A stretch of 42,587 bases of DNA from Terriglobia bacterium (GTDB lineage Bacteria; Acidobacteriota; Terriglobia; Bryobacterales; Bryobacteraceae), in contig JAIQFU010000057.1 of the NCBI GenBank assembly GCA_020073115.1, positions 1-42,587 of the forward strand. Reading direction: 5' to 3'. Shown here piece after piece: positions 1-41,796 of this stretch. Positions within the stretch are counted from its first letter, which is position 1; every line of letters begins with the position of its first letter. The position numbers were made by a program, and so were the translations under genes. A model generated the notes under the pieces. That model saw only the letters and a program-made list of their open reading frames with translations. It ran no database searches and had not been told where the DNA came from.

Positions 1-8
1 ACACGCGG

Positions 9-258
9 CCTACCTGAAAGGCGCCCTGGATGAAGGGCAAGGTGGCAGCCGGCGGCGCAGATACCACGCAGTGGGATTCGTGAAAGGGGCAAACCGGGTA
101 CAGGCACGAAGTTTCGCAAAGACGGCGAAATTCGAGCCAGTCCCCGCTTTGCAGGTTGCCTACCTGAAAGGAGTCCTGGATGAAGGGCAAGGTAGTGGCC
201 TGCGGCCAAATTCCACGCAGTAGGATTCGTGAAAGGGGCCAGTGCCCGCTTTGCAGGT
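9..258. repeat. Tandem palindromic repeat, family 1 (two imperfect copies)
   Basis: Two units start with the same text (CCTACCTGAAAGG... at 9 and 159) and end with CCGCTTTGCAGGTT (142-157 and 245-258). Unit 1 carries a complete imperfect palindrome: arm GCAAACCGGGTACAGGCACG... (89-117), a short loop, and arm GCGAAATTCGAGCCAGTCCC... (125-152). The arms match at about 24 of 28 positions with one bulge. Unit 2 lacks about 50 bases covering nearly all of this core. Frame 2 stays open from base 2 to the stop at 221-223, so this could also be the tail of a gene lying off the left edge. Related copies lie at 5777-5864, 9423-9546 and, diverged, 40846-40914. Confidence 0.85.
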
Positions 259-274
259 TGTATGCTGTTAAGCG

Positions 275-5776: not shown

Positions 5777-5864
5777 AGCACGCAGTATGATTCGGGAAAG
5801 GGCAAACCGGTACCGGCACGAAGTTCCGCAAGGACGGCGAAATTCGAACCAGTCCCCGCTTTGC
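5777..5864. repeat. Palindromic repeat, family 1, intergenic copy
   Basis: A leader CACGCAGTATGATTCGGGAAA (about 5779-5799) resembles the leader at 64-85. The arms are GCAAACCGGTACCGGCACGA... (5802-5829) and GCGAAATTCGAACCAGTCCC... (5837-5864). It lies 36 bases past the galU stop. Confidence 0.85.
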
Positions 5865-5900
5865 CGCCTGTTCCGGGCCTCCGAGTGCTGACAGCTTTCG

Positions 5901-7580: not shown

Positions 7581-9627
7581 CGAAAAACTTCTCCACCTCC
7601 TCCAGCCTGTTGGTGAGCCGATAAGGGGGCAGGCTGTCGAGGAACACCTGACCGTAGCGCTGCTTCGTGACGCGGTTGTCCAGCAGGACCAGGACGCCGC
7701 GGTCGGACTTGCTGCGGATGAGGCGCCCGAAACCCTGCTTGAGCGCAATGGCGGCCTGCGGAACCTGGTAGTCGTAAAACGGGTTGCCGCCCGCCGCGCG
7801 GATGTTTTCGATGCGCGCGTTCACCACGGGATCGTTGGGTACCGCGAAAGGCAGTTTATCTATAATAACGCAGCTGAGCTGCTCGCCCGGCACATCCACG
7901 CCCTGCCAGAACGACGAGGTGGCGAAGAGCACGCAGTTGGGCGTGGAGCGGAACTCCCCGAGCAGCGCGCTACGGGGCCCCGTGCCCTGCATGAGCGTGG
8001 GGTATTCGATCTCGAACGAGACGGCGTCGTAGACCGAGCGCATCTGCTGGTAACTGGTGAACAGCACGAAGGCGCGCCCGCGGCTGTGCCGCAGGATTTG
8101 GATCACTTCCTCGGCCGCCGCCTTCGGGAAGGCCGGGCTGCGCGGTTCGGGCAGGTGCGGCGGGACATACAGCAGGGCCTGGCTGGCGTAATCGAAATGG
8201 CCGGGCACGATGAGCGTGCGGGCGCGCCCGGCCCCCAGCCGCTTCTGCACGTAATCGAATCCGCCCGCCACGGCGAGGGTGGCGGAAGTGAGCACGATCG
8301 TGTCTACCTTCGAGAAAAGGCGTTCGGAGAGCATTCCGGAGACGTCGATGGGGGTGGCCTGGAGGAAGCAACCGCGGCCGCGCTTCTCCATCCAGTAAAC
8401 GTACTCTTCATCGTCCTCCTCCATGATGAAGCGGAGTCCCATGGAAAGCTCACCCACGCGCCGGAACAGCGGGATCACCTCGTCGGGGGGGTTCTGCATC
8501 AGCTTGAGATGCGAACCGATCAGGTCCAAGGCCGCCAGCAGGTTGACGTAGATCTCCTCGTTCTCCTCGCGGAAGGCATCGCGGCCCTGGAATGCCAGGC
8601 GCCGGTCGCCTTCGCCGAAAAGGCCGAAGAACTGGACGGTGAGTTCGTCCAAGCGCTGCAGGATCCGGTCCAACTCCGGCGCGCCGAATTTCTTGGCCCG
8701 GGCCACGGAAGCCACATCGCGGCGCAGTTCCTGAAAGCGGTAATTGCTGATGGAGACGCCGAAGTACTGGCCCGCGACGTCTTCGATTTCGTGCGCCTCG
8801 TCGAACACCACCGCGTGGTAATCGGGCAGGATGCCGCCTTCGTAGTTGTCGTCGCGCAGGGAGAGATCGGCGAAGAACAGGTGGTGGTTGACGATGATGA
8901 CGTCGCTCTCGGCGGCGCGCTGGTGCATCAGCGTGAGAAAGCAGCGTTCGAAGTCGGGGCACTTCTGGCCGGCGCAGAGGTCGCTGCGCGCGTCGAGCTT
9001 GGACCACGCCGTGCTGGACTCCGGCAGGTTCTGGATTTCGGCGCGGTCGCCGAACTCCGTGGTCTTCTCCCACTCCCGGATAATCTGGAAGTCGGCGACC
9101 TCTTCCAGGCCCGCCAGCACCGGCTCCTTTTCGGCATCGTAGATCTTGCGGCGGCAGGCGTAGTTGTTGCGCCCCTTCATATAGCAGACCCGCAGCGGCC
9201 GGGAGAAATGTTGCTGGAGAAAGGGAACGTCCTTGAAGAAGAGCTGTTCCTGAAGGTTTTTGGTCCCGGTGGAGATGATGATGCGCTTGCCCGAGAGCAG
9301 CGCGGGAACCAGGTAGGCCAGGGTCTTCCCCGTCCCGGTGCCCGCCTCGACGATGAGATGCCGTTTCCCGGCGAGCGCCTCCTCCACGGCCTCCGCCATT
9401 TCGCCCTGGCCAGGGCGAGGCGGCGAAATTCGAGCCAGTCCCCGCTTTGCGGGCAATACCAGGCAGTAGGATTCGCGAAAGGGCAAACCGGGTACAGGCA
9501 CGAAGTTTCGCAAAGGCGGCGAAATTCGAGCCAGTCCCCGCTTTGCGGGCTGTGGCGCGGCGAATTCCGCTAAAGGAATTCGGCCGCGCGCGTAATACTG
9601 ATTCGAGGGACAACAGCGTATGAACAA
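7573..9627 (-). CDS. DinG/XPD-family ATP-dependent helicase with repeat-derived N-terminus
   Basis: The core is a superfamily 2 Fe-S helicase. It has a Q-like RPGQ (71-74), Walker A AGTGTGKT (95-102), four Fe-S cysteines (NNYAC, then DLCAGQKCPDFERC), Walker B VVFDEAH, and C-terminal helicase motifs (SATLAVAGGF, ATSSFWQGVDVPG, QGFGRLIRSKSDRG). Such enzymes unwind DNA or R-loops in repair. The first 70 residues are not family-like: residues about 27-70 are translated from the family-1 palindromic repeat at 9423-9546, and PAKRGLARISPP occurs twice 32 residues apart. Normally a 20-30 residue N-terminus runs directly into the RPGQ motif. The TTG start at 9627 is uncertain, and no good ATG exists before the Q motif. 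The gene is divergent from the membrane-protein remnant at 9620. Confidence 0.88.
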   Translation of the reverse strand: MFIRCCPSNQYYARGRIPLAEFAAPQPAKRGLARISPPLRNFVPVPGLPFRESYCLVLPAKRGLARISPPRPGQGEMAEAVEEALAGKRHLIVEAGTGTGKTLAYLVPALLSGKRIIISTGTKNLQEQLFFKDVPFLQQHFSRPLRVCYMKGRNNYACRRKIYDAEKEPVLAGLEEVADFQIIREWEKTTEFGDRAEIQNLPESSTAWSKLDARSDLCAGQKCPDFERCFLTLMHQRAAESDVIIVNHHLFFADLSLRDDNYEGGILPDYHAVVFDEAHEIEDVAGQYFGVSISNYRFQELRRDVASVARAKKFGAPELDRILQRLDELTVQFFGLFGEGDRRLAFQGRDAFREENEEIYVNLLAALDLIGSHLKLMQNPPDEVIPLFRRVGELSMGLRFIMEEDDEEYVYWMEKRGRGCFLQATPIDVSGMLSERLFSKVDTIVLTSATLAVAGGFDYVQKRLGAGRARTLIVPGHFDYASQALLYVPPHLPEPRSPAFPKAAAEEVIQILRHSRGRAFVLFTSYQQMRSVYDAVSFEIEYPTLMQGTGPRSALLGEFRSTPNCVLFATSSFWQGVDVPGEQLSCVIIDKLPFAVPNDPVVNARIENIRAAGGNPFYDYQVPQAAIALKQGFGRLIRSKSDRGVLVLLDNRVTKQRYGQVFLDSLPPYRLTNRLEEVEKFFDV
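9423..9546. repeat. Palindromic repeat, family 1, inside the helicase reading frame
   Basis: The right arm GCGAAATTCGAGCCAGTCCC... occurs at 9423-9450 and again at 9519-9546, 96 bases apart (32 codons). Between them are the leader (CCAGGCAGTAGGATTCGCG) and the left arm GCAAACCGGGTACAGGCACG... (9483-9511). All of it is open in the helicase frame on the minus strand. Confidence 0.85.
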
Positions 9628-36784: not shown

Positions 36785-36862
36785 GGCCACGGATGAACAC
36801 GGATGAACACGGATAAAACCAATCTTTTTCTTATCCGTGTTCATCCGTGTTCATCCGTGGCC
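36785..36862. repeat. Perfect inverted repeat, family 3, inside the gcv operon
   Basis: The 32-base perfect arms begin GGCCACGGATGAACACGGAT (36785-36816) and end at 36862 (36831-36862), with a 14-base loop AACCAATCTTTTTC. Each arm holds three near-identical CACGGAT units. It sits in the 102-base gap between gcvPA and gcvPB and would form a very stable hairpin 12 bases before the gcvPB start. Confidence 0.9.
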
Positions 36863-38350: not shown

Positions 38351-40146
38351 AAGGGGGCCGGGGGCCGGAGGCCGGGGGCCGGGGCAGGGGACTGCTGCTG
38401 GCGCTCGGGGTTGTGCTGCTGATTCGAGTTCCGTTTCTGAATCAGCCGATTCAGGGGGACGACCACACTTACATTTCGGAGGCGGCGCACGCGTTGGTCG
38501 AACCGCTGCATCCGGGGCGCGTCCAGTATGTGTTTCAGGGCGACGTGGTGGACCTGCGCGGTCATCCGCATCCGCCGCTGAACGCCTGGGCGCTGGCCGG
38601 GCTGATCGCGGTGTTCGGGGATGTGAGGGAGATTCCGTTCCATGCGGCGTACCTGGTCTTTTCGCTGATTGCGGCGTGGGCCATGTGGAGACTGGCCTGC
38701 CGGTTTTCGCCGCGGCCGGCGTGGGCCACGCTGCTGTTCGTGGCTGTACCGGCGTTTGTGGTGAACGGGAATTCGCTCGAGGCGGATTTGCCGTTTCTGG
38801 CGTTCTGGATGGCGGGGGTGGGCGCGTTGGCAACCCGCCGCAGGCTGGCAAACTGGCCCACCGCATTGTTCCTGGCGCTCGCGGCTCTGGCGGCTTACCA
38901 GGCGGTGCTGCTCACGCCCATTCTTGGTGTGTACGTGTGGTTGTATCACCGGCGGGATTGGCGCCGGTGGGCGCTGATTCTGGTTCCCCCGGCGACAATT
39001 GCGGCGTGGCAGGGATTTGAGCGCCTCACCACGGGTGCGGTTCCGGCGGGCGTGCTGGCGGGCTACCTCTCCACCTACGGCCTGCAGGCGCTCGGCAGGA
39101 AAGCCGCCAGCGGCGCCATGCTCTTCATCCATAGCTGGTTTATCGTGTTTCCCGCGCTCGTGCCGGGAGCTTTTCTATTGGCGTGGCGCAAGCGGCGGGA
39201 ACCGGACACGCTGTTTCTGCTGGCGTGGATCGGCATCTTCTTCGCGGGGGCGCTGGCCTTCTTCTTCGCCGGGTCGGCGCGGTATCTGCTGCCCATGGCG
39301 GCGCCGGTGGCGATCCTGGCTTCGCGGCTGCGGCCGAAGTGGCTGGCGCTGGGCTTCGGCGCGCAGATGGCGCTGGGACTGGGCCTGGCAGCGGCGAATT
39401 ACCAGCATTGGGATGGCTACCGGAACTTTGCCGAATTGGTGCGCGGCCCCGCGGCTGGCCATCGCGTCTGGGTGAACGGCGAGTGGGGGCTGCGCTACTA
39501 TCTCGAAAAGGACGGCGCGCTGCCGCTGACGAAAACGCAGCCACTGCGGCCGGGCGATATCGTCGTGACCAGCGAACTGGGCCGGAGCGTGGACGTGATG
39601 GCCCCCGGCATCCCGGTGCTCAGGGCGTCGATTCGCCCGCGCATCCCGCTGCGGCTGATCGGGCTGGATTCGCACTCGGGTTATTCCACCGTGAGCCGGG
39701 GGTTCTGGCCGTTCGGCGTTTCCACCGGCATTGTCGACAACCTCTCGGCCGCGATGATCCAGGAGCGTCATCCGACGCTCGAGTACCTGACGCTGAAATC
39801 GCCGGAGGCCCGGGATCAAGTGGTGAGCGGGGTTTTCTCCGACGGCTGGATGTCGAAGAGCGCGATCCTCGCGCTGAAAAACCCCAATTCGCCCGAACAT
39901 CTGCGCGTGCAGTTCTACCTTCCCCCCCAAGCGGCGGCGCGGCATGTCAGCCTGCTGCTCGACGGGCGCGAGGTGGCCGCCCAAAGCTACCCCGGCCCGG
40001 GGTTGTACAAGCTCGATTCGGATCTGGCGTACCGTTCGATTTCGCCGTTCGCAGTGGTGCAGGTGGACGTGGACCGCACGTTCACGCCGCCGGGCGACAA
40101 GCGCCAATTGGGCGTGGTGCTGATGGGGGTGGGCTTCGCGCGTTGA
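38338..40146 (+). CDS. GT39/ArnT-like polytopic membrane glycosyltransferase
   Basis: The 602-residue protein has about 10-12 membrane helices and a C-terminal exported domain. The first loop after helix 1 reads FLNQPIQGDDHTYISEAAHA, the acidic motif that binds lipid-linked sugar donors in the GT39/GT83 (C-type) fold. Later text includes HPHPPLNAWALAGL and FVVNGNSLEADLPFLAFWM. It probably transfers a sugar from a polyprenyl-phosphate donor; the acceptor is unknown. Residues about 5-18 (EGGRGPEAGGRGRG) are translated from a G-rich repeat. The true start may be downstream, such as GTG 38412, though the overlap with gcvPB favours ATG 38338. Confidence 0.8.
   Translation: MEALEGGRGPEAGGRGRGLLLALGVVLLIRVPFLNQPIQGDDHTYISEAAHALVEPLHPGRVQYVFQGDVVDLRGHPHPPLNAWALAGLIAVFGDVREIPFHAAYLVFSLIAAWAMWRLACRFSPRPAWATLLFVAVPAFVVNGNSLEADLPFLAFWMAGVGALATRRRLANWPTALFLALAALAAYQAVLLTPILGVYVWLYHRRDWRRWALILVPPATIAAWQGFERLTTGAVPAGVLAGYLSTYGLQALGRKAASGAMLFIHSWFIVFPALVPGAFLLAWRKRREPDTLFLLAWIGIFFAGALAFFFAGSARYLLPMAAPVAILASRLRPKWLALGFGAQMALGLGLAAANYQHWDGYRNFAELVRGPAAGHRVWVNGEWGLRYYLEKDGALPLTKTQPLRPGDIVVTSELGRSVDVMAPGIPVLRASIRPRIPLRLIGLDSHSGYSTVSRGFWPFGVSTGIVDNLSAAMIQERHPTLEYLTLKSPEARDQVVSGVFSDGWMSKSAILALKNPNSPEHLRVQFYLPPQAAARHVSLLLDGREVAAQSYPGPGLYKLDSDLAYRSISPFAVVQVDVDRTFTPPGDKRQLGVVLMGVGFAR
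38350..38392. repeat. GGGGGCCGG-type short repeat at a gene start
   Basis: Three or four near-copies of GGGGGCCGG occur in tandem just after the gcvPB stop. They are read in frame as Gly/Arg-rich residues at the N-terminus of the glycosyltransferase. Confidence 0.6.
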
Positions 40147-40514: not shown

Positions 40515-41796
40515 GGGTATCGAGCGCGGTCGCGATGTGGAAGCGCAGTTCGACATGCGACCGCCGCAAGGCCTGTTCCACGTCGTGCGGCGACTCGCCG
40601 CGCGCGAAGATGAAACCCAGATAACTGGAGCCTTCCGGCAGCGGGATGAGCCGCTGCCCCTGCTTGGCCGTGATGATGACGTCCTCGATGCCGGGGACGG
40701 CGGCGGCGCGGTCGAGGCCGTCCACGGATTCGTAGATTCCGCCCTTGGGGATGGGGATCATCATGACGCCGGAGGGGCCGGTGAGGCGGGCGCGGGAGAC
40801 ATCTTCGCCGAGGGCGTGGCGGAGGATGAGTTCTTCGAGTGGGATCTTCAATTCGGGGACAGGCAACGAAACCCCCAAACTGCGGGGGTTTCGAAGCCAG
40901 TCCCCGAATTGAAGGGCTTTGGCGCAGAGGCCGCCGATAGGGCGCGCGGCGGCATCCAGCATCCAGATGCCTGTGGCGTTCGCGCGCATTTCCAGGTGCG
41001 TGGGGCCGTGGCGCAGGCCGAGGGCGCGGACGGCGCGGGCGGCGGTATCGAGCAGCGCGTCCTGGATTTCGGCCGGTTCGCGCGAGGGCGTTACGTAGAT
41101 CGTCTCCTCGAAAAACGGGCCCTCCAGCGGGTCGGGCTTGTCGAAGATGGCGAGCGGCTGAAGGCGGCCGTCCGTCACCAACCCTTCCACGGCGAACTCC
41201 CGGCCTTCGATGTAGCTCTCCACCTGCACGTAGCGCTCGCGCAGGCGGCGCAGGTCGGGGTTTTTCTCCAGCAGCGCCCGGATGCGCGCGAAGGCAGCGG
41301 CGAACCCCGCTTCGTTGTCGGCGCGAATCACGCCGCGGCTGGCGGAAAGGCCCAACGGCTTCAGCACGCAGGGATAAGGGGCCCGGCGCGCGAGTTCCCT
41401 CGGATCTTCGGAGATGGCGGCGCGGAAGTAAGCGGGCACGGGCAGCCCCGCGGCCTGGTAGAGGCGCCGCGCCAGGTACTTGTCCTGGCAGGCGCGCGCG
41501 GCGGCCGGGGGGTGGAAGGGGACGCCGATCCGCTCCGCGACCTCGGCGGCCAGGATCGCGGGGCGGTCGCCCACGGCGGCGACGCCGTCGAACGGCATTC
41601 CGTCGAACGCCGCTATGGACTTCGGCATGCGCGCGTCGAACTTGACGGCGATGGAGTGGTCGCCCCAGGCGTCGTCCATGCGGTCGCAACGGTCGGAGGC
41701 GAGTTTGACGTCGATGCCCAGGCGGCGGGCGGCGCCGGCGAAGACGCGGATCTGATAGCCCGTGGTGGCGGCGAACAGGAGAAGGCGCTTGGCCAC
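40498..41796 (-). CDS. ATP-grasp ligase/carboxylase-like protein with in-frame palindromic element
   Basis: The 432-residue protein has an N-terminal Rossmann-like domain (AKRLLLFAATTGYQIRVFAG, VAAVGDRPAILAAEVAER). The ATP-grasp fold follows: CQDKYLARRLYQAAGLPVPA, PCVLKPLGLSASRGVIRA, YVQVESYIEGREFAVEG, THLEMRANATGIWMLDAAARPIGG. The C-terminal part has a biotin-carboxylase-like end. The substrate is unknown; the family joins an acid to an amine or carboxylates. Residues 295-317 (LQFGDWLRN...PVPELK) are encoded by a 69-bp palindrome. Skipping them gives the usual GGLCAKAL-...-IPLEELILRHALG join. Start GTG 41796, 2 bases after the holB stop, gives the expected start. Confidence 0.85.
   Translation of the reverse strand: MAKRLLLFAATTGYQIRVFAGAARRLGIDVKLASDRCDRMDDAWGDHSIAVKFDARMPKSIAAFDGMPFDGVAAVGDRPAILAAEVAERIGVPFHPPAAARACQDKYLARRLYQAAGLPVPAYFRAAISEDPRELARRAPYPCVLKPLGLSASRGVIRADNEAGFAAAFARIRALLEKNPDLRRLRERYVQVESYIEGREFAVEGLVTDGRLQPLAIFDKPDPLEGPFFEETIYVTPSREPAEIQDALLDTAARAVRALGLRHGPTHLEMRANATGIWMLDAAARPIGGLCAKALQFGDWLRNPRSLGVSLPVPELKIPLEELILRHALGEDVSRARLTGPSGVMMIPIPKGGIYESVDGLDRAAAVPGIEDVIITAKQGQRLIPLPEGSSYLGFIFARGESPHDVEQALRRSHVELRFHIATALDTLMPSP
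40846..40914. repeat. 69-bp palindromic element inside the ATP-grasp gene, family 1 relative
   Basis: The perfect outer arms are CTTCAATTCGGGGAC (40846-40860) and GTCCCCGAATTGAAG (40900-40914). The perfect inner arms are CGAAACCCCC (40867-40876) and GGGGGTTTCG (40884-40893). The minus-strand word GGGGACTGGCTTCGAA matches the family-1 arm GGGGACTGGCTCGAA. The length is exactly 23 codons, and both ends fall on codon boundaries. Confidence 0.92.

Follow-up and report, generated by a model that had tools for sequence, protein, structure and literature searches.

The 42,587-nt stretch of Terriglobia DNA analyzed here (hereafter the window) opens with two units of a high-copy hairpin repeat, family 1, the second of which has lost most of its hairpin. 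Family 1 forms a paired stem and recurs in the genome as dispersed copies and tandem arrays. Its sister family, family 2, matches the inverted repeats of Y1_Tnp (IS200-like) genes in the same genome, and a second unit lacking its core is found on another contig. Judged from its letters, family 1 appears to be an element of the known REPIN/TIR-dimer kind, because its arms share the GGGGACAGGC head of that kind and because family 2 nearly matches the inverted repeats at contig C428. Loss of the core is most likely a palindrome-stimulated deletion. The findings add a high-copy, tandem-forming acidobacterial hairpin family to the TIR-dimer/REPIN kind, with a sister family tied to transposase genes in the same genome.

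A tandem pair at the start of the contig

The window is contig C634 of a draft genome of 7.19 Mb in 683 contigs, and its first 260 bases, at the very start of the contig, consist of the two units. The original prediction of two direct-repeat copies was borne out: the units share three blocks, of 49, 33, and 23 nt, at 88%, 91%, and 96% identity, respectively, and stand at a spacing of 150 nt (149 after a 1-nt indel). The copy limits, given there as 9–258, are corrected in Table 1. The pair is not a chance likeness, because this core is present in up to 103 near-intact copies in fetched stretches of the genome.

Table 1. Positions of family 1 and family 2 features in the window
Feature	Position	Strand	Basis
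Tandem unit 1, hairpin core intact	8..158	+	Repeat finding; alignment with other genome copies
Family 1 hairpin core, 68 nt; stem 89-93 with 148-152 inward to a 7-nt loop	87..154	+	DNA fold, pair counts
Tandem unit 2, core-less	158..260	+	Repeat finding; frame/junction inspection
Deletion junction GGGGC/CAGTGCCC, break between 237 and 240, GC overlap, C>G change	235..247	+	Junction inspection, break enumeration
Near-full family 1 core	5800..5866	+	Row of core alignment
Half core, 3′ arm only, begins at loop, full unit directly after	9418..9452	+	Locus scan, profile search
Full family 1 core	9481..9548	+	Genome copy listing
Sister dimer family 2, inner stem ACGAAACCCCC, arms nearly match C428 Y1_Tnp inverted repeats	40855..40905	+	Locus scan, 22-mer search

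Relative to unit 1, unit 2 lacks 47 nt, in keeping with the roughly 50 missing bases first noticed, and the junction reads as had been stated, with a 2-nt GC overlap. Because this GC is shared at the junction, the loss has three equivalent placements, at window 89–135, 90–136, or 91–137. The folded hairpin corresponds to window 89–152 (a 64-nt imperfect hairpin), and the deletion removes its tip together with almost all or all of the 5′ arm, depending on the placement. The earlier claim that exactly the hairpin was lost is therefore wrong, as most but not all of the 64-nt hairpin is gone and part of the 3′ arm remains, reading CAGT(C>G)CCCGCTTTGC. The right half of the basal stem is kept as CAGTGCCCGCTTTGC, with a single C>G change that sits 4–5 nt from the junction and is absent from every other right arm among the 100 listed of 103 matches. 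Likewise, CAGTGCCC occurs only at the window junction among the 100 right-arm sites listed of 103 (≤2 mismatches), and a coreless query, for which 40 of 91 candidates were scored, gave a contiguous match across the junction at the window's own copy only. The removed 47-nt piece is itself able to fold (z −2.8), and 2 of 200 shuffles did as well.

Frame 2 had been described as open over both copies; it contains stops at 221 and 230, ahead of the junction, which rule out a protein-coding reading of this frame, and a third at 269. On the minus strand, frames 1 and 3 stay open over window 1–274 and might allow a coding reading, and a long open frame starts at 275, into which unit 2 runs on. At another array, on contig C481, the repeats are covered by a long minus-strand frame; the plus strand facing it has a long frame of its own, which to the eye resembles a CoA-dehydratase activator. 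No Rfam family reached its gathering score anywhere in the window. Elsewhere in the window, short tandem repeats of CACGGATGAA and, 45 bases on, of ATCCGTGTTC (36788–36859) are near reverse complements of each other, and a GGGGGCC tandem repeat occupies 38353–38390.

Family 1 is a dispersed and tandem hairpin with a paired stem

A 41-nt stretch of the core has 87 genome sites at ≤3 mismatches. A profile search of fetched stretches, some of them picked from long contigs and known copy-bearing contigs and so no random sample, returned 109 places, of which 103, in 84 loci, cover at least 56 model positions. A few places (C159, C126, and C475) have a different inner stem, and some of these may count among the 103; at C126 and C475 (L211 and L213) the inner stem is a third variant, of the CCAATTCC type, with a similar basal stem. 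Within the up to 103 near-intact copies, 37 copies at 18 loci stand in tandem arrays with periods of 87–183 nt. Flanking DNA is repeated together with the core at C393, and at C131 a single core has the flank sequence to its left and to its right. Judged by eye, conservation is much stronger in the core than in the flanks.

Related cores were found in at least 13 of the 151 genomes searched, own included, with at most six candidates scored per genome. The exact core 20-mer occurs in 26 named stretches, which by label comprise 14 Bryobacterales, 1 Bryobacteraceae, 8 Acidobacteriia, 2 Acidobacteriales, and 1 Myxococcales. The window's genome is itself probably of the Bryobacterales. Most of the 18 related copies inspected with their surroundings lie in unrelated flanks, and at least three of the 18 (L125, L139, and L141) retain the outer right end known from the window's genome. 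The outer ends of the element, CTAGTGGTCTGCGGCGCAAATA ... TATTTTCGCCGCACTACACTAG, are palindrome-like by eye, and the core often lies inside a longer palindrome-like element with ends CTAGTG...CACTAG, for example in L038 around 390–545. On comparison with MITEs, outer ends of this CTAGTG.../...CACTAG form were seen in several copies and no target duplication was recognized by eye. A full-text literature search with one string, GGGGACAGGCAC, gave an unrelated match only; family 1, ordinary in kind, is on this single string searched in print provisionally regarded as new in sequence.

The core, in a folded sequence identical to the window core, folds at −19.1 kcal/mol (z −5.1), and 0 of 200 shuffles were as good. 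The core alignment lists 77 of the 91 distinct cores; the 14 omitted were left out by choice, not blind, and include L136, which has the most divergent inner stem, copies with replaced ends, and near-duplicates. Among the 77 distinct aligned cores, both-side changes occur in 9 of the 27 pairs and amount to 33 cells, compared with a shuffled mean of 10.5, and 0 of 500 shuffles were as high on either measure. When the partner was shifted by one to three columns, the paired cells fell from 87% to at most 50%. The compensatory changes thus support a real stem, unevenly so, because two basal pairs, at columns 8/63 and 9/62, account for 22 of the 33 cells and because the structure was drawn from one of the aligned sequences. 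The stem also contains conserved mismatches: columns 21/51 are unpaired in 73 of the 77 cores and columns 13/58 in 60, and the alignment places an A opposite an A between column pairs 15/56 and 17/54. Family 1 shows a trait of REPINs here, namely two conserved ends in inverted orientation that pair with each other to form a single hairpin.

Relationship to Y1_Tnp inverted repeats

The genome has 10 Y1_Tnp matches, 9 of them over the cut-off, and Y1_Tnp genes are present in seven of the eight relatives tested. The motif GGGGACAG[A/G]C occurs in 11 of 40 fetched Y1_Tnp loci, some of which overlap each other, and the gene lies between inverted copies of it at L151, L153, L159, L166, and C428. Two Y1_Tnp genes are found at C428, one over and one below the Pfam cut-off; both carry ATTTCGGGGACAGGCTACGAAACCCCC on one side and, on the opposite side, a variant that ends TACTCAACCCCC. 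One of these variants is further diverged. The 235-aa product tested matches Y1_Tnp over the cut-off and scores 71 bits against the NCBIfam model for REP-associated tyrosine transposases, below the cut-off of 80. The two C428 genes are adjacent (C428:1018–2698, L217), each lying between inverted GGGGACAGGC-type repeats, of which one is diverged. The 22-mer ATTTCGGGGACAGGCTACGAAACCCCC, which the family 2 arms also carry, has 69 genome sites at ≤3 mismatches, 28 of them exact, and many are dimers, the C428 ends being included in the count. For family 2, C428 does have Y1_Tnp genes between such inverted ends; in one of the genes, one end has diverged.

The arms of family 1 carry the GGGGACAGGC head, as in the terminal inverted repeats of Y1_Tnp (REP-type) genes. 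In a test for GGGGWSAS, 17 of the 77 aligned rows have a G pairing with C at position 13 (the GGGGACAG type). Most of the remaining rows have GGGTACAG, and the 3′ arm has GGGGACTG; each departs from GGGGWSAS by one base. None of the 48 Y1_Tnp loci, which cover 10 own and 30 related places, had a match to the family 1 core, and the own loci gave weak 3-mismatch arm matches only. Conversely, a transposase query that matched 36 of the 48 Y1 loci as a positive control gave no transposase-like match in the 26 core-bearing named stretches, the own element loci, or the window. No Y1 gene flanked by family 1 ends in inverted orientation was found in the 48 Y1_Tnp loci and the copies examined, and because no transposase with family 1 ends was found, family 1 is not assigned to a cognate enzyme. 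Dispersed dimers and tandem clusters that include flanking DNA are both present (up to 103 copies and 18 arrays). Family 1 looks like a gene-less relative of a known transposon system. Inverted repeats of the kind that flank the C428 genes were also seen as a pair at C425:1721–1937 (L222), where a spacing of about 200 bases leaves no room for a whole transposase gene; this pair is perhaps a gene-deleted step between a full element and a dimer.

Y1 transposases flanked by TIRs with GGGGWSAS ends have been described along with TIR dimers, clusters, and an acidobacterial group (Di Nocera et al. 2013, PMC3733652), and TIR dimers and TIRYT have been placed mostly in subclass 2.1 of TnpA-REP (Quentin et al. 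2018, PMC6006769). Family 1 shares with TIRYT/TIRtron dimers the inverted arms (of the GGGGACAG type in 17 of the 77 aligned rows), the dimers, the clusters, and occurrence in Acidobacteria, and the near match of family 2 to the ends of the two C428 genes is a further likeness. Family 1 differs in that a transposase gene with its own ends was not found and in that most copies read GGGTACAG. It also forms a single uninterrupted imperfect hairpin that has conserved mismatches and a loop of 7 nt, a comparison made from the published text. With the REPINs of Pseudomonas fluorescens (Bertels and Rainey 2011, PMC3116915), family 1 has in common inverted ends that form a hairpin, high copy number, tandem clusters including flanks, several groups per genome, and lopsided hairpin loss. 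In contrast to those REPINs, the losses described here lie in assembled contigs, not reads, their endpoints vary, and a GTAG-type tag was not seen: inspected by eye for GTAG or CGTC, the hairpin foot has the consensus GTGAAAGGGCAAACC / GCTTTGCAGCCTG, with neither tag. Mobilization by a cognate RAYT, a further REPIN trait, is for family 1 a prediction from sequence. Solibacter usitatus is described as having about 600 copies of class 3 TnpA-Y1 structures (PMC6006769). These, too, are hairpins that reach high copy number in an acidobacterium and are linked to Y1 transposases; those structures have a CnGA foot, and family 1 was compared with them by description only. The BIME/REP of enterobacteria are also inverted palindromic units, isolated or clustered (PMC6006769). 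To our knowledge, there is no sequence likeness between BIME/REP of enterobacteria and family 1.

Loss of the hairpin core

A second core-less form, unit 2 of the array on contig C455, was found by scanning fetched loci and is present also in the right-arm scan. Its junction, GGGCAAACCG/TCCCCGCTTTGC, removes 44 nt with a 1-nt overlap. The exact pattern GAAAGGGN{0,30}CCCCGCTTTGC for core-less forms had no match, both core-less units being a single mismatch away from it. As to whether core-less forms recur with the same junction, recurrence was seen and a shared junction was not, with 47 nt removed in one case and 44 in the other and endpoints at model positions 3–5/49–51 in the window and 10–11/53–54 in C455. 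Among 342 enumerated junctions of this kind, the overlap is 1 nt in 32.5% and 2 nt in 8.5%, so that those at the two junctions are unremarkable. Each core-less unit is also the final one seen in its array, and in both the left arm loses more than the right.

Other copies are broken differently. C606 unit 2 has internal losses, C91 retains the right arm only, and three truncated copies, at C424 (L103), C39 (L094), and C80 (L054), retain the left arm only and end at ACAGGC, with a 1-nt ambiguity at C39. The tandem units of C424 and C39 also restart at ACAGGC. Solo arms numbered 45 in one scan, and those with further core or flank sequence were kept; most solo-arm rows of an earlier scan were dropped by eye as opposite-strand palindrome or as cores beyond the spacing or mismatch limits, a few others of the 45 are intact cores with a variant arm, and the rest look like chance. 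Arrays in which intact, truncated, and core-less units stand together form a natural record of hairpin loss, and a wider genome survey could separate excision from slippage.

The best explanation of these data would begin with a Y1 tyrosine transposase element with terminal inverted repeats, from which a dimer of two inverted transposase recognition ends (a TIR dimer, REPIN-like) may have arisen. The dimer would then have been amplified to about 100 copies, with tandem duplication, often together with flanking DNA. Unit 158–260 would first have held the same hairpin, and DNA synthesis would have skipped it, with loss of 47 nt and rejoining at the GC common to GGGC and GAGC. Taken as a whole, this course of TIR-dimer origin, amplification, and slippage loss is somewhat probable, and within it we infer that family 1 is or was moved by a Y1-type transposase and that the hairpin was lost by replication slippage. 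Polymerases are reported to slip across hairpins with short direct repeats in vitro (PMC4134008). The two sets of endpoints, the folding of the removed piece, and the C>G change near the junction all favor slippage. Random deletion endpoints among copies had been named in advance as what would refute the original reading; across the two copies the endpoints do vary, and the two differing junctions argue against one precise excision, which would leave the same junction in independent core-less copies, and for palindrome-stimulated slippage. Of the original suggestion that the loss reflects excision or slippage in a mobile-type repeat, the loss of most of the hairpin stands, with slippage and excision as the two candidate mechanisms.

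The main rival, which we judge unlikely, is that a Y1 (TIRYT/RAYT) enzyme cut out the folded single strand with a tail and left a scar. Three REPIN excisions described in SBW25 reads are lopsided, starting from the left invariant end and leaving about the last 6 bp of the right end, so that what is cut out is a hairpin carrying a 5′ tail (PMC3116915). The removed pieces here can be drawn in the same way, with tails of 13 nt in the window (in one folded placement) and 4–5 nt in C455, but the 5′ tail depends on the strand chosen, since the hairpin is near-symmetric. The genome does have its 10 Y1_Tnp matches, nine over the cut-off, and a Y1_Tnp gene lies about 7 kb from the core-less unit on C455; however, none of the 48 loci or the copies examined has a transposase with family 1 ends, and the two junctions differ at both ends, unlike the constant REPIN geometry. 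With n = 2, the lopsided losses and the last-unit position fit a site-guided process as well as they fit slippage. A related, improbable version holds that the core-less units are TIRYT-type Y1 excision scars made by flexible cutting, the enzyme driving both loss and array growth; a preferred nick just after ACAGGC is proposed because C424, C39, and C80 end there and two of them restart there. If true, an ACAGGC-nicking enzyme would cause both hairpin loss and tandem growth. That the core-less form is instead ancestral, an empty site into which the hairpin was later inserted, is highly improbable. The palindrome-like outer ends could by eye be a target, and REP dimers inside palindromes are reported (PMC3733652), but the core-less units keep different parts of the hairpin arms and so cannot both be the pre-insertion site, and near-intact copies outnumber core-less ones by about 100 to 2.

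An assembly or library artifact, in which a polymerase or the assembler skipped the hairpin near a contig end, is also improbable. Both core-less units do lie within 260 bases of contig ends, at 158–260 in the window and at about 7683–7713 of 7809 in C455. Moreover, window 1–131 equals C481 351–221 exactly before the two diverge, and the next unit of C481 has its core; this split suggests that the assembly graph branches here. Skipping of the hairpin alone is nevertheless insufficient: unit 2 of the window has differences of its own (TGCGGCCAAATTCC, TAGG, and CAGTG) and runs into the long open frame from 275, and unit 2 of C455 has its own differences and its own right flank. Because the shared stretch extends over seven bases outside the unit, C481 and the window may represent alternative forms of a single locus in a mixed population or else a branch of the assembly graph. 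A similar case is found at C138 and C643 (L065 and L108), which have 128 exact bases in common at the array and the same right flank, with differing left flanks, another sign of mixed versions or assembly branches.
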